From JBHIBR01 sp046759145 [NCBI: Nitrospinota bacterium] (lineage in GTDB: Bacteria; UBA8248): a DNA stretch of 14,063 nucleotides. The stretch's first letter is position 1. Every line of letters begins with the position of its first letter. The DNA is taken from positions 1 to 14,063 of the forward strand of contig JBHIBR010000010.1 of assembly GCA_046759145.1 (NCBI GenBank). The letters are read 5' to 3'. Below the pieces are notes generated by a model. The model ran no database searches. It was not told the origin of the DNA and saw nothing but the letters and a program-made list of their open reading frames with translations. Of this stretch, positions 2,469-14,063 are shown one piece after another. Both the position numbers and the translations under genes were made by a program.

Positions 2469-3293
2469 TTGGGCTTTTCTCTCTCTGCCCACCTCTTCGC
2501 CCGCGAGCCCCTGGAGGAGGAGCACCTCGGCCAGGCGGCCGCGGCAGGCTTCCGCCGCCTGGAGCTCTGGGCCATGCGGCCGCATCTGGACTACAGGAGC
2601 AAGAGGGTGGTGGCGGGGCTCGCGAGCTGGCTTGCGAAAAACGGCCTCTCCGCACCCACCCTTCACCTCCCCTTTTACGCCCATCTGGAAGAAGCCCGGG
2701 CGGGCAGGTGGCTCTCCCTGGCCCACCCGGACGAAGGGGAACGCCGGAGGGCGCTGGAGGAGTGCCGCCGGGCGCTGGTGGCCCTCACCCCCCTGGGCCC
2801 TTGGGTCGCCATCCTCCACCCCTCCCGTCCCCGCTCTTCCGACGACCGAGTTGCGTTGCGCGAGAGTCTGGAATCCCTCCTCCCCCTGACGGAGGGGCTG
2901 GGCGTGCGGCTCGCCCTCGAGAACATCCCCGCCCCCGGCGGGGACACGGCCTCGGTGGCGGAGGTCATCCGCGAGGTGGGCGCGCCAGGCCTGGGGGCGT
3001 GCCTGGATGCGGGCCACGCCCACCTCACCGACGACCCTGTGGAAGGGCTGGGACGGGTGGCGCCCTTCCTCCTCGCCACCCACCTCCACGACAACGACGG
3101 CCGGGAGGATGCGCACCTGGTCCCGGGCGGGGGGCGGATACCCTGGGGGCGCTTCCGCGAGGCTCTGAGCCTTTCGGGCTACCGGGGCCCCCTCACGGTG
3201 GAGACGAGGAGGATGCCCTCCGAGGACTACGAAAAGGCCCTGGCCCGCGCCTGGGCCTCCCGGCGGCACCTGGGCGAGGGGGCTGAGCCATGA
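2469..3293 (+). CDS. Sugar phosphate isomerase/epimerase-like TIM-barrel protein
   Basis: The 274 residues belong to the xylose-isomerase-like/AP-endonuclease-2 TIM-barrel superfamily, which includes ketose 3-epimerases, inosose dehydratases and hydroxypyruvate isomerases. What is seen: an N-terminal strand FSLSAHLFA, LENIPAPGGD with Glu151, LDAGHAHL with Asp180 and His183, THLHDNDGREDAH (204-216, with His205 and His207), PGGGRIPW (219-226) and TVETR with Glu245. By analogy with ketose epimerases, Glu151, Asp180, one of the two His and Glu245 should bind a divalent metal. The exact substrate cannot be read from the sequence. Translation starts at TTG 2469 behind a consensus AGGAGG. The stop overlaps the next start (ATGA at 3290-3293), so it is translationally coupled to the kinase, which points to a sugar substrate. 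No signal peptide is visible, so it is probably cytoplasmic. Confidence 0.85.
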   Translation: MGFSLSAHLFAREPLEEEHLGQAAAAGFRRLELWAMRPHLDYRSKRVVAGLASWLAKNGLSAPTLHLPFYAHLEEARAGRWLSLAHPDEGERRRALEECRRALVALTPLGPWVAILHPSRPRSSDDRVALRESLESLLPLTEGLGVRLALENIPAPGGDTASVAEVIREVGAPGLGACLDAGHAHLTDDPVEGLGRVAPFLLATHLHDNDGREDAHLVPGGGRIPWGRFREALSLSGYRGPLTVETRRMPSEDYEKALARAWASRRHLGEGAEP

Positions 3294-4555
3294 GAGCCCG
3301 CCCCCTCCTCCCGCCCGCGCTGGGGAAGAAAAAAGAAGCCCTGGCCTCGCTCCTGCGCTCCGCTCTGGGGTCTGGGCTGGAGGTGGCGGCCGTGGAGGCG
3401 CTCCCCGGCGACGCCTCGGATAGGCGCTACTATCGCCTGCGGCTCGAAGGGGGAGGGGCCGCGCGGCCCCAGGCGAAGCGCCAACTCTCCCGGCCCCTAC
3501 TTGCCAGCCGGGGCTCGAAAAAAGTGGGCCCTTTCGCTCCGCCCGGGTGCCGGCGGGCACCCCGGTGGCCGGGGGCGCAAGGGAACGCCATCCTCATGGA
3601 AAGCGACTCCCCGCCCGGACCCGAGCCTTTCCTGAACGTGCGGGCGTTCCTGGAGCTCAAGGGTCTCCCCGTCCCCTCCCTCTACGGGGCGGACGGGGAA
3701 GAGGGGCTTGTCCTCCTCGAGGACTCCGGGGAGGAGACGCTGGAGGAGTGCCTCCGGAGGGAACCCCACCGCGCCGAGGCACTCTACGAGCAGGCGCTGG
3801 AGCTGCTCCTCACGCTCCAGGAGCGCTGCACCGAGGTGAGCGAGCCCGACTCCGGCCACCCCTGCCGCGCCCTCCGCTACGCCTTCGATGCGGACACCTT
3901 CGCGGGAGAGCTCCATCACACCCGCCGCTTCGCCTTCGAGGGCCTCCTGGGCCTGCGCGCCCCGGCCGAGGAGTGGGAGGAGGACTTCCGCTGGCTCGCC
4001 CAGGCCCTGGTGGGGAACCCCAGCGCGCCTGCGCGCTGGGGACCCCTGGCGGGGCGCCCCAAGCGGCAGGCCGCTTGGAGACCCCTGGCGACGCCTCCCC
4101 TCGTCTTCACCCATCGCGACTACCACAGCCGCAACCTCCTCGTCAGACCCGACGGTGAGCTTGCCCTGCTCGACTTCCAGGACGCACGCCTCGGCCCTCC
4201 TCTCTACGACCTGGCCTCGCTCCTGTTCGACGCCTATCGGAGGCCCATCGGGGAGCTCTCCGAGCGACTCGCGCGCCGCTTCCGGGAGGGGAGCCCCGGG
4301 GCAAGGGCGTCGGGGAGGAAGGACGCCTTCGACCGGGCGCTGCGTCTCGCGGGCCTACAGCGGGACCTCAAGGCCATCGGCACCTTCGCCTACCAGAAGC
4401 TGGTGCGGGGGACGGACCGCTATCTGCCCGCCATCGGGGCAGCCACCCTCCTCGTCCGGGAGCACCTGGAACACCTCCCCGAGGCGAGGGGGTTCGCCCG
4501 GAGGCTCGCCCCAATCCTCGATCGCCTGGCTCAATTCTCAGGAGAGGACGGATGA
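3290..4555 (+). CDS. AmgK-like anomeric sugar kinase (APH fold) with two palindromic insertions
   Basis: A phosphotransferase of the aminoglycoside/choline kinase fold, closest in pattern to AmgK, which phosphorylates MurNAc and GlcNAc at C1 in peptidoglycan sugar recycling. Seen: LPGDASDRRYYRL (about 38-50), LLEDSGEETLEE, the catalytic loop HRDYHSRN (275-282, Asp277), the metal site DFQDA (295-299, Asp295), and the tail LQRDLKAIGTFAYQKL plus DRYLPAI, which is typical of AmgK. The protein is 421 residues against about 340-360 for the family. The excess sits in two blocks, residues about 57-98 and about 243-268, that are Arg/Pro/Gly-rich, palindromic in DNA and absent from the expected motif pattern. 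Without them it would be about 353. Both keep frame and all catalytic residues survive, so it may be active. It overlaps both neighbours by ATGA. The usual partner nucleotidyltransferase MurU is not in the window. Substrate is inferred. Confidence 0.85.
   Translation: MRARPLLPPALGKKKEALASLLRSALGSGLEVAAVEALPGDASDRRYYRLRLEGGGAARPQAKRQLSRPLLASRGSKKVGPFAPPGCRRAPRWPGAQGNAILMESDSPPGPEPFLNVRAFLELKGLPVPSLYGADGEEGLVLLEDSGEETLEECLRREPHRAEALYEQALELLLTLQERCTEVSEPDSGHPCRALRYAFDADTFAGELHHTRRFAFEGLLGLRAPAEEWEEDFRWLAQALVGNPSAPARWGPLAGRPKRQAAWRPLATPPLVFTHRDYHSRNLLVRPDGELALLDFQDARLGPPLYDLASLLFDAYRRPIGELSERLARRFREGSPGARASGRKDAFDRALRLAGLQRDLKAIGTFAYQKLVRGTDRYLPAIGAATLLVREHLEHLPEARGFARRLAPILDRLAQFSGEDG
3455..3583. 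repeat. In-frame palindrome-rich insertion 1 in the kinase gene
   Basis: This block encodes about residues 57-98 of the kinase, between the RLEGGG strand and AILMES, which are normally close together. It opens with the perfect 16-bp palindrome GGGGCCGCGCGGCCCC (3455-3470). It also holds GGCCCC/GGGGC arms near 3493-3515, and CCGGGTGCC with GGCACCCCGG near 3543-3565. GGCTCGAA occurs just before it (3441-3448) and again inside it (near 3512-3519). It reads like a REP or palindromic element tolerated inside a coding region. The exact ends are not certain. Confidence 0.55.
4012..4090. repeat. In-frame insertion 2 in the kinase gene: two hairpins and a 39-bp direct repeat
   Basis: Hairpin A: CCCCAGCGCG (4018-4027), loop CCTG, CGCGCTGGGG (4032-4041), a perfect 10-bp stem. 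It can be extended by GGGG 4012-4015 pairing with CCCC 4043-4046. Hairpin B: CCAAGCGG (4059-4066), loop CAGG, CCGCTTGG (4071-4078), a perfect 8-bp stem. GACCCCTGGCG occurs at 4041-4051 and again at 4080-4090, exactly 39 bp (13 codons) apart. The block encodes about residues 243-268, just before the catalytic HRDYHSRN loop, where the family has a short linker. Confidence 0.65.
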
Positions 4556-5207: not shown

Positions 5208-6116
5208 ATGCGAGTGGGTTTCATCGGCCTGGGCCTGATGGGCAAGCCCATGTGCCGCAGGCTCCTCGGGGCAGGCTTTGAGCTCTACGTACACAATCGC
5301 AGCCGTCCCGCGGTGGAGCTCCTGGCGGCCGAGGGCGCGAGAGCTTGCCGCTCGAGCCGGGAGGTGGCCGAGCGCGCGGAGGCGACCATCACCATGCTGC
5401 CGGGCGCCCCCGAGGTGGAGGAGGCGGCGCTGGGCGATGGAGGGATCCTGGAGGGGGCCCGGCCCGGCTCGCTCTATATCGACATGACCTCCAACGACCC
5501 CGCCTGCGTGGAGCGCGTGGCCCAGGCGTTGGGCGCGCGGGGGGTGGCGACCCTCGACGCCCCGGTATCGGGCGCCCCCGAGGGGGCGGAGGCGGGCACC
5601 CTCTCCATCATGGCGGGGGGGCCGAGGGAGGCCTTCGAGCGGGCCTTCCCCCTCTTCCAGGCCATGGGCCGCACCATCGTCCACGTGGGAGAGAGGCCGG
5701 GGGCGGGCTGCTACGCCAAGATCGCCAACCAGATCCTTGTGGGCATCACCTTCCAGGGGGTGGCCGAGGCGCTGCTGTTCAGCGCCCGCGCCGGGCTGGA
5801 GCTGTGGGACCTCGTGCGGGCGCTCTCGGGGGGGCTCGCCAGGTGCGGCGCCCTCGAGGTCAAGGCCCCCAAGGCGCTGGCGGGGGATTTCGCCCCGGGG
5901 GCGAAGGTAGTCACGCACATCAAGGACCTCACCTACGCCCTCGAGCACGCCCGCAAGTTCGGCCTCCCCCTGCCCGCGACCGCCATGGTCCAGCAGCTCT
6001 TTCTCTCAGTGGCGGCCTCGGGGGGGGAGGGCTGGGACCACATCTCCATCATCACCGCCCTGGAAAAGCTGGCAGGACTGGAGGCAAGAGCCAGGCCGCC
6101 AGAGGGCTCCCGCTGA
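5208..6116 (+). CDS. NAD(P)-dependent oxidoreductase, 3-hydroxyisobutyrate dehydrogenase family
   Basis: The 302 residues are the standard length for beta-hydroxyacid dehydrogenases. These cytoplasmic enzymes oxidise 3-hydroxyisobutyrate (valine breakdown) or reduce tartronate semialdehyde and related acids. Seen: a Rossmann start MRVGFIGLGLMG with the Gly pattern at 7, 9 and 12; the substrate-binding signature DAPVSGAPEGAEAGTLSIM (117-135, Ser121 and Gly122); and GAGCYAKIANQ (165-175) with the catalytic Lys171. The C-terminal helical domain includes HIKDLTYALEHARKFGLPLP. ATG 5208 is preceded by GGGAGG with a spacing of about 6, a strong ribosome site. It is likely its own transcription unit, separated from the previous operon by a hairpin and convergent with the next gene. 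3-hydroxyisobutyrate is plausible given the CoA-transferase and acyl-CoA dehydrogenase nearby. Glyoxylate or succinic semialdehyde reductase activity is an alternative. Confidence 0.9.
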   Translation: MRVGFIGLGLMGKPMCRRLLGAGFELYVHNRSRPAVELLAAEGARACRSSREVAERAEATITMLPGAPEVEEAALGDGGILEGARPGSLYIDMTSNDPACVERVAQALGARGVATLDAPVSGAPEGAEAGTLSIMAGGPREAFERAFPLFQAMGRTIVHVGERPGAGCYAKIANQILVGITFQGVAEALLFSARAGLELWDLVRALSGGLARCGALEVKAPKALAGDFAPGAKVVTHIKDLTYALEHARKFGLPLPATAMVQQLFLSVAASGGEGWDHISIITALEKLAGLEARARPPEGSR

Positions 6117-6175
6117 TTGGCCCAAACCAAGGGGCCCTTCGGGCCGCAGCCGAAGAGAAAGGATAGGACGAAGGC

Positions 6176-6203
6176 AAAAAGGAGGCCCGGCGCCGCTTCG
6201 CCG
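6176..6203 (-). terminator. Possible terminator of the retropepsin-like gene in a convergent gap
   Basis: The 122-bp gap 6117-6238 separates two convergent genes. Read on the minus strand, a CGGCG/CGCCG stem (6188-6203, loop 6) is followed 7 nt later by TTTTT (complement of 6176-6180), a weak intrinsic terminator for the minus-strand gene. On the plus strand, GGCCC-TTC-GGGCC (6133-6145) lies 17 nt after the dehydrogenase stop, but no T-run follows it. Confidence 0.3.
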
Positions 6204-6238
6204 CGAAAGTCCCGCTCACAGACGGGGGTGGGGGCACC

Positions 6239-7477
6239 TCACTTCCGCACCAGGATGAGCTGGCCCTGGGCTGAGTCGATGGTGACGTCGAAGTGCCGCA
6301 AGAAGCTCAGGCCTAGGAGTCCGGCCAACGCCTTCCCGGGCCTGCCCATGCTGTGGACCACCGCCTCCACGTCCCGGGCCTCGGCCGTCCGCACCCGCAC
6401 CGAGCTCAGCCGCACGAGGGGCGCCTCCACCACCTCGCCCAACGCCGTGGTCAGGCGCACCCGCTTCGCATCCTTGGGGATGGAGAGGCCAACGGCCCGG
6501 GCGAGCTCGGGACTGATGGTGGTGAAGGTGGCCCCGGTGTCCAGAATGAAGGTCGCCCGCTTGCGGCGGTTGATCTCAACGGGCACCAGGATGGCCGTCC
6601 CCTTCTTCTGGAAGGGGACGACAACCCGGCCGGCTCTCGCCTCCCGGGCGGCTCCCGCGGGCAGCCAGCCCACCCCCAGCCGGCGGAGCCTCTCCTCGAA
6701 GGCCTCTCCGCCGCTCACCCGCCCGGCCGGGAGGAAACCCCGAAGCAGGCCGCCCTCCCCCCGGGGGTCCTCGGCCTGCACGTGATACCAGGCTCCCGCG
6801 GTGACCCGGATGCGGTGGAGGAAGCGCACCAGCGTCCCCTCGGACAGCAGGGCCACCACGCCCGACTCCGACGATGTGCCGCGATAGAGGGGGCCCCCGC
6901 CCGGGCCGACCCGTAGGGAGAGGGCGCCCCATTCGGCCTGCGGGGTGAGCTCGAGGGAGTAGAGGCACCGCCGAAAATCCCCCACGAAGCGGGCCCATTC
7001 CGCAGCCTTCGTGCGCGCCACCACCCGGAGCGCCCTGTCCCGGTGAACGGCCAGGAGGTCCCACACCTGCTGCCGGGCCTTGCCCTTGCCATACTGCCGC
7101 ACGAACTCGAAGACCAGCGCCTCTCCCAACCGGCGGTAGCCCTGGCGCACCAGGCGGTATTTCTCTCGCTTGTGGAGGGCGAAGTCCGCGGCCAGGCGCT
7201 CCTTCACCCACTCGGAAAGCGAGAGCCCGCGCAGGGGGAAGGAGGAGACTTCCACCGAAGCCCGGGCCCGAGGGCCCGGGGCGTCGCGGAAGGCGGTCTG
7301 GACTCCCGCCAGGGGCTCCGTCTCGATGCCCCACCCGGGTGGCACCGCAAGACGGAAAAAGCCGCCCGGGTCCCGGTAGAAGAGCGCCGCGCCGGCGTCC
7401 CGGACCGAGAGGAAGCCCGCGAGGCTGAGGACCACCGCATACGCCAGGGCGCTTCGAATGTGCGTCACACGAGCCAC
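6239..7477 (-). CDS. Exported retropepsin-like aspartyl protease with SH3-type and PsbP-like regions
   Basis: This 412-residue protein is predicted to be exported. Residues 1-30 are a signal peptide (hydrophobic LAYAVVLSLAGFL, cleavage near AGA30). Residues about 32-176 start YRDPGGFFRLAVPPGW, a pattern like PsbP/DUF1795-type surface domains. Residues about 184-252 look like a bacterial SH3 domain (LRVGPGGGPLY, then VVALLSEGTLVRFL, WYHVQ and GFLPAGRV). Residues about 284-412 are a retropepsin-like domain with the active-site loop FILDTGATFTTIS (Asp313-Thr-Gly-Ala) and GLLGLSFLRHFDVTID (386-401). One Asp per chain implies action as a dimer. The start is GTG 7477 with GGGAGG 7 nt upstream. It may process or sense envelope proteins; the target is unknown. 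A good promoter lies just upstream. The protein is a mosaic of three modules, so a scaffold or receptor role rather than a protease is possible. Confidence 0.82.
   Translation of the reverse strand: MARVTHIRSALAYAVVLSLAGFLSVRDAGAALFYRDPGGFFRLAVPPGWGIETEPLAGVQTAFRDAPGPRARASVEVSSFPLRGLSLSEWVKERLAADFALHKREKYRLVRQGYRRLGEALVFEFVRQYGKGKARQQVWDLLAVHRDRALRVVARTKAAEWARFVGDFRRCLYSLELTPQAEWGALSLRVGPGGGPLYRGTSSESGVVALLSEGTLVRFLHRIRVTAGAWYHVQAEDPRGEGGLLRGFLPAGRVSGGEAFEERLRRLGVGWLPAGAAREARAGRVVVPFQKKGTAILVPVEINRRKRATFILDTGATFTTISPELARAVGLSIPKDAKRVRLTTALGEVVEAPLVRLSSVRVRTAEARDVEAVVHSMGRPGKALAGLLGLSFLRHFDVTIDSAQGQLILVRK
7261..7280. repeat. Perfect 9-bp inverted repeat inside the retropepsin-like gene
   Basis: CCCGGGCCC (7261-7269), GA, GGGCCCGGG (7272-7280). 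It lies in the codons for residues about 66-72 of the minus-strand protein, at the linker-like DAPGPRARA segment. The 2-nt loop is tight, so in RNA the stem would open to 8 bp. It resembles the palindromes in purD and the kinase in type but not in sequence. Confidence 0.4.
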
Positions 7478-11016: not shown

Positions 11017-14000
11017 ATGTCGGCCGAAAGGGTGCAAACAGCACTTCAAGAATACGCTTCAGGCATTAGATCGATCCGCCTTGATCCCAATCATCACCCA
11101 GAAACCTCTCTCTACACCAAGTTCGAAGAAGTACTGCGTGAAATAGCCAAAGAACTGGGGCTACCCATTGAGATTATCCAACAGTACACGGCCGGAGAAG
11201 CAGGCGCGCCGGACTTTGGGATAAAACGCCCTCGATTCGCGCTAATAGGGCATATCGAAGCCAAGGAACCGGAGAAGAATCTGGACCATCTCACTGGGCG
11301 GGACCGGCAGCAGTTTGAACGCTACCTCGACTTGCCTAATTGGATCCTAACGAATTTCTGGGAGCTCCGCCTTTACCAAGATGGCAAACTGGTTGACCGG
11401 GCGGAGTTGGTTCCCAAGGTCGCCCTCGACCCCGCCCGCAAAAAGGCAGTCGTGCCCCATCACGATCCGCACAAGGCTTTGTTCCTTCTAGAGGCATTCT
11501 TAAGACGTAGCCCCTCGCCCATTAAAAATGCCGCACAGCTATGCGCGGAGCTTGCCCGAAGCGCCAGGCTTGTTCGAGCAGCGGTTTGCGATGCATTGGA
11601 ATCGCCGGACTCCGGAAATGCTAAAGCCCTCCGCCAGGTTTTTGACGAATTCAAGGATGCCCTTTTCTCCGATTTGGACGAGGCAAAGTTCGCGGACGCC
11701 TATGCGCAGACCCTCGCCTATGGGCTCCTTCTTGCCCGCAAGACAACGGGAAAGGAGCTTGAACTGGAAAGCGCCCATAGGTTCGTGGACGAGATGCAGC
11801 ACCGGCTCCTTTCAGCAACGCTCCGTCTTCTCGCCCAACCCGAGGTGACGAGGATCATCGGTTGGACCACCCGGTCCCTGATTGACCTCGTGAACCGGGT
11901 GGATCCGGCGATCCTTCTAGTGGACAGGCTTGGCCGAGACCCCATTCTATACTTCTACGAGGACTTTCTGGCCGCATACGATGAGGCTTTGCGAAAACAG
12001 GCAGGAGTCTATTACACCCCACCTCCCGTCGTCAACTTTCAGACCCGCTGCATCCAAAGACTCCTTCGAGAGGTGTTCGGAAAACCCCTCGGCTTCGCCG
12101 ATGATGGCGTAGAGGTACTGGACCCAGCAGTGGGGACCGGGACCTATCTCGTGTCCGCCCTGAAAGAAGGAGCCCAAGCGGTAGAGAGCGCAATGGGGGA
12201 AGGGGCGGTCCCACAATACGTTTCCTCGATGCTCGACCATCTCCACGGCTTCGAGCTTTTAGTTGGGCCATACACAGTCGCCCATTTCCGTCAGGCCACG
12301 GCCGCTCAAGAACTTGGCGGGAGTCCATCGGCTCGACTCCCCATTTTCCTCACAGATACCCTTGAACCAGCCCATACCAAAAAGGCCTTCATGGGAAGCT
12401 TTGGCTTCATGTCGGCTCCGATTACGGAGGAGCGACAAGAAACCGATCACGTAAAGAGCGAAGTTCCCATCATGGTCATTCTTGGCAATCCGCCTTATGG
12501 TCGCGGCAAGGCCATATCCGGTTGGGTTTGGGAAGAGCTATTGGAAGATTTCCGCAAGCAGGTCCCGAAAGAAGAGCGAGTGAACTTGAAGAACCTTGCA
12601 GAGAAATACGTATACTTCTATCGTTGGGCCACTTGGAAACTATTCGAGCAGGACTCTTCGCCAAAACGCGGCATCCTCAGTTTCATTTCCAATCGCTCCT
12701 TCCTCGAGGGTGGAGCCTTTTCCGGCATGCGAGCCATGTTTCGGAAGCGGTTCGAGCGTATCTTCGTCATAGACCTGCACGGGAATAAGAGACCGGCCCT
12801 GCCTGCACACGTGGCGAGAGATGAGAATGTATTTCCAGAAACTCAAGTCGGCATCACAATTACCTTCTGTATCGCAGGCGGAAAAAAGACGTCTCACGAG
12901 GCCGAGGTTTATTATACAGAGGTTTGGGGAGACGCGGACCAGAAAGATCAATGGTTGAATAGGGCTGATCTTTCCACGATAGAGTACGTACCAGTAGAGG
13001 GACAAGGAATTGACCCTTTTTTGCCCAGTCTCACCAAGGTATTTGGGGAATGGCCTGAATTGAAGGGCGAAGTGTTCCGAAAAGCATTTAGCGGTATCGA
13101 GACGAACCGAGATTCGTTTACGGTTGCCCCTGATCCCAGGATTCTGGAGCATAGGTTCGGAGTATTCAAGGCTTCCCGTCCCGCACAGAGGCGAGAAATT
13201 TTCCATGAATCCAGGGATCGCGGTGCCGGTGCAGTGGCCGCTCTTGTACTTAATAAAAAGTGGATATCACGATACGGCTACCGACCGCTAGATCGCCAAT
13301 TCTTTATTAACCACAGAGCATTCATCGACTGGACGAGGCCATCTTTGCAGAAGGCATGGGGGGATAAAAACGTCGCCATTGCGACGCTCCCGAAGGGGCA
13401 TGGCACCGGCCCTGTAGTATTTGCCCACTGCTTTCTTCCAGACAGGCATTGTTTTCGCGGGAGCTACGGTGGCCACATATTCCCCCTATGGATTCGCGAT
13501 GGCGCACAAGAAGAAACTGACCCCAACGACGCCCATAATTTTCGACTAGAGCTAGTCCAGGCCCTACAGAAGGGCTTGAGGAAAGCCATTTCGGCGGATG
13601 AGTTCTTTGCCTTTTGTTACGCTGTCCTTGCATGTGAAGCCTATTCGCGCCGTTTTGGGCGCGATCTGGCTCGAAGCTTCCCCAGGGTGCCGTTTCCGAA
13701 ATCCACGACCCTTTTCTCGGCTGGGGCGGCTCTCGGGAAACGTCTCCTGGCCCTCCACACATTTGAAGAATCCTATCCGAACGACGGCAGCATCGGGCTC
13801 GAGGGAAAACCAAAGACAATCGGCACGCCTGAATATCTCGACGAGCCTCAGGTGCTCCTCATTGGGGAAAATGCCCGGATTAGACCTGTTACCCCGGACG
13901 CCTGGGGTTACCAAGTGAGCGGCTATGAGGTGCTCCGGCAGTGGCTGGAGCGGCGAGAAGCGTTATCGCTCGATAGACGCATGATCCGCGAGCTTTTCAA

Positions 14001-14063
14001 CGTAATCTGGGCCTTGGAGCAAACCGTCGCCATGCGACAGGACCTAGAGACCTTTCTCGAATC
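11017..14063 (+). CDS. Type ISP/IIG single-chain restriction-modification enzyme, 3' end cut by the window
   Basis: One frame runs from ATG 11017 to the window end: 1,015 codons without a stop. AGGTGAG lies 6 nt before the ATG. Residues about 1-150 hold a PD-(D/E)xK nuclease site: P65-D66 then E81-A-K83 (IGHIEAK). A helical linker follows (about 150-310). The N6-adenine methylase core has FYEDFL, then AGVYYTPPPVV (329-339), SAM motif I DPAVGTGTYL (369-378) and catalytic NPPY (491-494). The C-terminal part matches the ISP specificity region: YGYRPLDRQFF (753-763), a YAVLACEAY segment with PRVPFP, and VSGYEVLRQWLERR near the end. Such enzymes methylate one adenine and cut unmodified foreign DNA. 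No Walker A motif or helicase block is visible, unlike LlaBIII-type ISP enzymes. The near-complete C-terminal pattern implies the stop lies close beyond the window. Codon use is far more AT-rich than in the genes upstream, indicating horizontal transfer. Confidence 0.9.
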   Translation, partial: MSAERVQTALQEYASGIRSIRLDPNHHPETSLYTKFEEVLREIAKELGLPIEIIQQYTAGEAGAPDFGIKRPRFALIGHIEAKEPEKNLDHLTGRDRQQFERYLDLPNWILTNFWELRLYQDGKLVDRAELVPKVALDPARKKAVVPHHDPHKALFLLEAFLRRSPSPIKNAAQLCAELARSARLVRAAVCDALESPDSGNAKALRQVFDEFKDALFSDLDEAKFADAYAQTLAYGLLLARKTTGKELELESAHRFVDEMQHRLLSATLRLLAQPEVTRIIGWTTRSLIDLVNRVDPAILLVDRLGRDPILYFYEDFLAAYDEALRKQAGVYYTPPPVVNFQTRCIQRLLREVFGKPLGFADDGVEVLDPAVGTGTYLVSALKEGAQAVESAMGEGAVPQYVSSMLDHLHGFELLVGPYTVAHFRQATAAQELGGSPSARLPIFLTDTLEPAHTKKAFMGSFGFMSAPITEERQETDHVKSEVPIMVILGNPPYGRGKAISGWVWEELLEDFRKQVPKEERVNLKNLAEKYVYFYRWATWKLFEQDSSPKRGILSFISNRSFLEGGAFSGMRAMFRKRFERIFVIDLHGNKRPALPAHVARDENVFPETQVGITITFCIAGGKKTSHEAEVYYTEVWGDADQKDQWLNRADLSTIEYVPVEGQGIDPFLPSLTKVFGEWPELKGEVFRKAFSGIETNRDSFTVAPDPRILEHRFGVFKASRPAQRREIFHESRDRGAGAVAALVLNKKWISRYGYRPLDRQFFINHRAFIDWTRPSLQKAWGDKNVAIATLPKGHGTGPVVFAHCFLPDRHCFRGSYGGHIFPLWIRDGAQEETDPNDAHNFRLELVQALQKGLRKAISADEFFAFCYAVLACEAYSRRFGRDLARSFPRVPFPKSTTLFSAGAALGKRLLALHTFEESYPNDGSIGLEGKPKTIGTPEYLDEPQVLLIGENARIRPVTPDAWGYQVSGYEVLRQWLERREALSLDRRMIRELFNVIWALEQTVAMRQDLETFLE

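Follow-up and report, generated by a model that had tools for sequence, protein, structure and literature searches.

The window analysed here, the whole stretch of 14,063 nucleotides, carries on its forward strand a reading frame of 421 codons (3290-4555) that encodes an AmgK-like kinase with the APH fold and hosts two insertions. Pfam PF01636 (APH) matches the frame with E 1.4e-19, and the two AmgK models of NCBIfam are its best matches there, at 78 and 75 bits, with cut-offs (500 and 550) that lie far above these scores. The sole solved structure that matches the kinase by sequence is PDB 3csv (E 3.8e-19). The catalytic motifs, HRDYHSRN and LDFQDA, are both intact. An AF2 model calculated from 20 sequences has a mean pLDDT of 83.7 and a pTM of 0.86, with pLDDT of at least 90 in 249 of the 421 residues, which we read as a predicted fold kept despite the insertions; the kinase is probably still functional.

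Relatives of the kinase were found 42 times in genome contigs, of which 17 were aligned in full, and of 18 genomes from one phylum, 15 had kinase matches, ten of which were aligned. The 27 orthologue rows used below are the sum of these 17 and 10, with some rows coming from the same genomes in both alignments; seven further matches, from 77 genomes of another phylum, lie outside the 27 rows. The top-scoring relatives belong mostly to metagenome-assembled genomes labelled Nitrospinota, and viral contigs gave no match to the kinase. PurD identity was 59-62% in the six phylum members tested, and the species of the window is therefore close to none of those six. At the far end of the window, which truncates it, lies a Type IIG restriction-modification-like gene (11017-14063, plus strand), with matches to Type_ISP_C (E 4e-57) and to REase_MTase_IIG of PADLOC (E 3e-178). 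The GC content beyond 11000 is about 0.55 (by subtraction) as against 0.71 before it, and this gene was possibly acquired horizontally.

The first insertion (insertion 1; 3455-3583, plus strand) lies between strands beta-2 and beta-3 and comprises 39-42 codons, whose DNA is non-coding-like. The first-pass annotation had placed here about 42 extra codons between two kinase motifs that should be adjacent, with the frame unbroken, and had proposed an alignment with orthologues as a check. The alignments bear this out: the window protein has about 38-42 extra residues between the motifs GDASxRxYxRL and S/NxxxM, the reading frame stays open, and a block of this size is absent from the same place in all 27 rows. 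Insertion 1 is thus a real in-frame insertion relative to the aligned orthologues. One orthologue (L061) has 12 extra residues at the same place, made of a PGGAAI tandem repeat. If the flanking copies of GGGGC (3455-3459 and 3572-3576) are the ends, insertion 1 is 117 bp (39 codons) long; by the count of the first-pass annotation it is up to 126 bp, both ends being approximate. Among direct repeats within or next to it, the best are two 8-bp pairs with spacings of 71 and 72, about what chance would give by a rough estimate; no direct repeat longer than 8 bp surrounds it, and a scan of 3420-3620 revealed neither an internal period nor a long duplication (best, 8 bp). An organization of the 117 bp as three 39-bp units was rejected, because no repeat at spacings of 39, 78 or 117 reached the listing threshold. 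Another kinase orthologue (L014, ORF 5941-7035) has a different in-frame palindromic insertion, at about codon 126 and so in another place than those of the window; it reads CCCCCCCTTATAAAGGGGGGG, with 9-bp arms, and apparently lies inside longer arms (CTACCCCC/GGGGGTAG).

We compared the composition of the insertions with that of the kinase. The GC content at codon positions 1, 2 and 3 is 0.77, 0.74 and 0.79 in insertion 1, with no codon-phase pattern, as against 0.78, 0.44 and 0.92 in the part of the kinase gene that separates the insertions; the second insertion (0.77, 0.85 and 0.81) is also without a coding pattern. On a measure of codon adaptation, each insertion scores 0.52, and the remaining parts of the kinase score 0.58, 0.75 and 0.62. 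In the AF2 model, block means of pLDDT fall to 47-66 for residues 61-100, between the strands at 46-54 and 98-104. Given the flat codon-position GC and the low-confidence loop in the model, insertion 1 resembles a non-coding sequence that was acquired in frame at a surface loop. The same results bear on whether it could instead be a conserved functional domain of a kinase subfamily. The intact frame would suit such a domain, but the composition, the low-confidence loop and the absence of the block from the 27 aligned rows all speak against it, and we regard this reading, already disfavoured, as very improbable.

The perfect 16-bp palindrome reported at 3455-3470 (GGGGCCGCGCGGCCCC) is confirmed, and the window has no second one of 16 bp. 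In third-order Markov sequence, 11 kb would contain 0.63 palindromes of 16 bp on average, and at least one occurred in 48% of 400 shuffles; the chance of one falling inside the 135-bp block 3449-3583 is 0.025 (3000 dinucleotide shuffles). Further inverted arms are present at 3545-3551/3556-3562, a hairpin (GGGTGCC-GGCG-GGCACCC, 3545-3562), and at 3454-3461/3491-3498. The block holds two hairpins with arms of at least 7 bp, with 0.37 expected (P 0.053). RNA folding is ordinary on the plus strand (z 0.36) and mild on the minus strand (z -1.9, 11 of 300 shuffles being as low). Of the annotation's view of insertion 1 as a palindromic block, the further arms stand, but with a palindrome that common in random sequence the case for such a block is marginal.

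The second pair of arms belongs to a 47-bp GTAGGGGC...GCCCCT pair on the minus strand (3454-3500, 8-bp arms AGGGGCCG/CGGCCCCT), which resembles the GTAG-tagged palindromes of relatives described below. From 500 Markov sequences, the number of such pairs to be expected in the window is 0.032, a post hoc figure, since the pair was noticed after the GTAG family had been seen in one of the relatives (G015). As a tie between insertion 1 and that family the pair is only suggestive.

We searched for further copies of insertion 1 in 392 genomes from three phyla (18, 77 and 297), the source genome being outside this set. By the annotation's own check, multiple copies with conserved palindromic ends in a BLASTN search would support a mobile element; among the candidates scored in the relatives the matches were all partial, and the best of these is single-copy in its genome. 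Among the best candidates per genome, the 18 genomes (up to 40 candidates each) gave partial matches of at most 34 bp (E 3e-5), the 77 genomes (up to 11 each, run without a positive control) gave none, and four of the 297 (up to two each) gave partial matches of 35-45 query bases at E<=1e-4. As the searches scored only part of the candidates, they are weak evidence either way. The best match among the 297 genomes (G207; 43 bp, E 5e-8 for that one genome) lies inside an open frame; it occurs once in its genome, where nothing else matched better than E 0.4, and was set aside as unexplained and possibly a coincidence. The best matches in two of the 18 genomes (G016 and G001) are a common 34-bp GC-rich stretch, coding-like and without the palindrome block, and were also set aside. 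The encoded motif KKxGPF occurs five times in six frames of 2.6 Mb, with no occurrence of its reverse; two of the five are the same G207 place counted twice and the other three look unrelated. The palindrome GGGGCCGCGCGGCCCC does not recur in 273 loci, and no sequence of the pattern GGGTGCC(2-6)GGCACCC occurs in the DNA examined from G015, G014 and L001-L042. Blastn of insertion 1 gave a best E of 0.4 against plasmids and 0.5 against phages, tblastn of its encoded peptide a best E of 9 and 2, respectively, and viral contigs lack an exact 22-mer of its GTAG part. Rfam, searched with 3300-4300 up to E 5, gave seven matches, all below gathering scores and none on insertion 1. A convincing second copy of insertion 1 was thus not found among the best candidates from the 392 relatives' genomes.

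It is possible, if rather unlikely, that insertion 1 is a non-mobile expansion of the loop, formed by duplication, slippage or a GC-rich patchwork, with the palindrome as a by-product of a GC content of 78%. The chance expectation of 16-bp palindromes would agree with this, as would the missing copies in the relatives' genomes searched and the PGGAAI tandem that enlarges the same loop in L061. Against such an expansion stands that the stretch shows no internal period or long duplication; the flat codon-position GC speaks against an origin from coding sequence, and the GTAG pair also counts against the expansion.

The same kinase gene carries a second insertion (insertion 2; 4013-4090), outside the coordinates of the first-pass annotation, and it is this insertion, not 3455-3583, that supplies the evidence for a repeat family, being the stronger and better-formed case. 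It consists of 78 extra bases, built of two 31-bp hairpin elements and 8-bp direct repeats at 39 bp per unit. A first copy of the direct repeat (CCCTGGTG, 4005-4012, period 39) is followed by element 1 (GGGAACCCC-AGCGCGC-CT-GCGCGCT-GGGGAC, 4013-4043), which is absent from the orthologue rows, a second copy of the repeat (CCCTGGCG, 4044-4051), element 2 (GGGCGCCCC-AAGCGGC-AG-GCCGCTT-GGAGAC, 4052-4082), which is the hairpin that is multi-copy in relatives, and a third copy of the repeat (CCCTGGCG, 4083-4090); all are given on the plus strand. Insertion 2 corresponds to a 26-residue gap in every other aligned row, while its flanks match the length of the orthologues, and both of its strands fold strongly (z -3.7 and -3.9). 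The arms of element 1 (AGCGCGC/GCGCGCT) have no match in the G015 and G014 DNA examined. We infer that the 8-bp repeats are target duplications.

The hairpin of element 2 is dispersed in three of the 18 genomes of the phylum. With up to two mismatches, CCAAGCGGC-AG-GCCGCTTGG matches G013 15 times, G014 13 times and G015 15 times, both strands being counted and the number of actual places therefore being smaller. G017 has a single match, with two mismatches, and the other 14 genomes have none; the reversed pattern gave three hits over all 18 genomes and none in G013-G015. Blastn of 4005-4095 agrees with this distribution (E 5e-7, 8e-9 and 1e-5 in G013, G014 and G015; no better than 0.02 in the others). 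GGGGTCC precedes the hairpin in five of the 22 distinct copies listed, and the elements of the window have nearly the same sequence on the minus strand. Of the 22 copies that lie elsewhere than in the window, only three have coding-like composition on both flanks, and the lone G017 match is among them; the G015 copy with such flanks lies in sequence without a Pfam match. The kinase orthologue of G013 has a copy of the hairpin immediately upstream (L081 1501/L050, G013:C120).

The clearest comparison of a filled and an empty site comes from G013, where a copy adds exactly 39 bp, in frame, to a gene of the FGE-sulfatase family (PF03781), whose G014 orthologue lacks it. The extra sequence includes an exact 10-bp flanking repeat. 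The GC contrast is 0.30 downstream of it and 0.06 upstream, so that the upstream flank is not clearly coding by this measure, while the PF03781 match spans that flank. Palindromic elements do therefore lie in frame inside genes of relatives, in line with what the first-pass annotation had supposed for this lineage. G014 has a 54-bp insertion (18 codons) of two hairpins just before a region of dnaB homology (PF00772, from residue 54 of the frame), which is absent from the 86%-identical region of G015. As its coding test (0.12) is below the threshold of 0.15, this insertion may lie in an N-terminal extension or precede the true start.

We then asked how common such insertions and repeats are. 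Comparison of 49 G014 and 11 G013 loci with G015 revealed 14 indels of at least 12 bp in 98 kb aligned, one of them hairpin-built; the contig of this one had been chosen for its hairpin hit, and the survey thus gives no insertion rate. Strong flanking or tandem repeats (score at least 8) accompany 5 of 26 AAGCGGC-type and look-alike hairpins, compared with 10 of 290 mixed-flank controls, although two of the five are the tandem of the window itself and two belong to a 36-bp tandem array in G014. G015 contains 658 hairpins with arms of at least 8 bp in 1.2 Mb, as against 349 in controls, and 11 rows (eight distinct places) of hairpins with flanking repeats of at least 9 bp, as against a mean of two rows in Markov controls (n=3). 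Repeat-flanked hairpins are modestly enriched in G015, and part of them may simply be tandem repeats; in 42 loci of other genomes another scan gave five such rows, all at one conserved site. G014 has three tandem copies of the AAGCGGC hairpin at a spacing of 36 bp (L070 1501-1592, G014:C93), and at one of the eight places in G015 a poly-C run faces a poly-G run between direct repeats (L207 11933-11958, G015:C30), a possible assembly artefact. From the dispersal of the hairpins and the one clear pair of filled and empty sites, we infer that hairpins of the insertion 2 type are mobile. The 39-bp period at two unrelated genes, in the window and in G013, suggests a unit in which 31 bp are joined by a duplication of 8 bp, or 29 bp by one of 10 bp; where to place the division is our own reading. 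The small share of hairpins with strong repeats (5 of 26) speaks against a general validity of this unit.

The relatives contain a second, solid family, the GTAG palindromes. The pattern GTAGGGGC N(4-34) GCCCCTAC occurs in 11 of the 18 genomes, with 98, 29 and 151 matches per strand in G013, G014 and G015, while the reversed controls gave zero to two per genome; among the copies listed, nearly all are 28-29-bp palindromes with interchangeable complementary inner stems. Pairs of the GTAGGGGC...GCCCCT type number 150 in 1.59 Mb of G015 (both strands counted), compared with one in Markov sequence, and G015 also has GTAG pairs that span 50-59 bp. The Y1 (RAYT) transposase family, PF01797, has no match over threshold in the draft genomes G013, G014 and G015, and has a match over the cut-off, at 22-25 bits, in four of the 18 genomes. 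One GTAG palindrome of G015 (L115 10456-10489) has an exact 9-bp direct repeat on both sides. Direct repeats at the flanks are not known to be a feature of HUH (Y1) transposition, and would be unexpected for elements moved in that way.

These families raise the possibility, which we hold to be somewhat doubtful, that insertion 1 was pieced together in more than one step from several REP-type elements (one of GTAG type at 3454-3500, and an unrelated hairpin at 3545-3562). Such an origin would account for the GTAG pair and the further arms, and draws on the abundance of GTAG palindromes in the relatives, where compound hairpins are known as well (the 54-bp insertion of G014 and the longer GTAG pairs of G015); REP clusters inside genes that encode 43-82 amino acids are described in PMC3733652. 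It fits less well with the 47-bp length of the pair in the window, unlike the 28-29-bp palindromes that dominate the listed copies, or with the second hairpin, which found no match in the G015, G014 and L001-L042 DNA.

An origin of insertion 1 from a mobile palindromic element is plausible, the arguments for and against it being about even. The explanation that we prefer, with a similarly balanced degree of belief, is that palindrome-rich non-coding DNA was inserted in frame into a surface loop of the AmgK-like kinase, where it would be tolerated, since this loop is not part of the catalytic core. Its source would most likely be the process by which 4013-4090 received its 31-bp hairpin elements: non-autonomous REP/MITE-like palindromes may be spreading through the genomes of the phylum and sometimes landing in genes, where they would persist provided that the net addition is a whole number of codons and that the resulting peptide, rich in Pro, Arg and Gly, can remain disordered. 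A bolder and improbable version is that the phylum harbours a minute mobile palindrome of 31 bp which, with an 8-bp target duplication, adds 39 bp or 13 codons per hop and so keeps the frame by design, its arms varying while their pairing is kept; insertion 1 would then be an older or composite product, and the transposase one that is not yet recognised. The single filled/empty orthologue pair fixes the inserted length, 39 bp, directly. If this unit were general, it would be a compact example of selfish DNA that adds peptide segments without breaking proteins. The findings add a deep, uncultured lineage to those with palindromic repeats inside apparently working genes.

The first-pass annotation had proposed an undescribed family of palindromes that invades genes, on the precedent of Rickettsia palindromic elements (RPEs) and some REPs. 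The precedent holds, as intragenic REPs and RPEs are already described in PMC3733652 and PMC10969869, and the elements were not found in open-licence papers on palindromic repeats of Nitrospina or Nitrospinota; 'undescribed' can thus apply only at the level of sequence. The evidence for a family comes from insertion 2, but 3455-3583, for which the family was proposed, has no convincing copy among the candidates scored in the relatives' genomes. MITEs of bacteria are non-autonomous and palindromic, with direct-repeat flanks when young (PMC10969869), and 70-300 bp long according to PMC3733652, whereas the insertion 2 element has 31 bp. Candidates for target duplications of the MITE kind are the 8-bp repeats with their 39-bp period in insertion 2 and the exact 10-bp repeat in the G013 gene, the repeats at insertion 1 not exceeding 8 bp. 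The GTAG REPs of PMC3733652 are short hairpins, single or grouped, with subfamilies that have alternative complementary stems, and more than half of their intragenic inserts are dimers or groups that encode 20-30 amino acids. The GTAGGGGC palindromes abundant in the relatives fit this superfamily, and insertion 1 holds a GTAGGGGC...GCCCCT pair on the minus strand, recognized post hoc and different from the common palindrome form. Unlike GTAG REPs, the insertion 2 elements are without a GTAG tag, and the RAYT (Y1) associated with such REPs was not seen over threshold in the G013-G015 drafts. RPEs are about 150 bp long and encode a conserved peptide (PMC10969869), and those of R. conorii end in CGTC (PMC3733652), a tag that we did not notice here by eye; the elements of the window are 31 bp long (insertion 2) or single-copy so far (insertion 1). 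As to copy number, the insertion 2 hairpin is multi-copy in three of the 18 genomes, and insertion 1 has no convincing copy among the candidates scored in relatives. Like RPEs, which are palindromic insertions that keep the frame of unrelated housekeeping genes and are read as extra peptide (PMC10969869 and PMC3733652), both insertions of the kinase are in frame and missing from the 27 orthologue rows.
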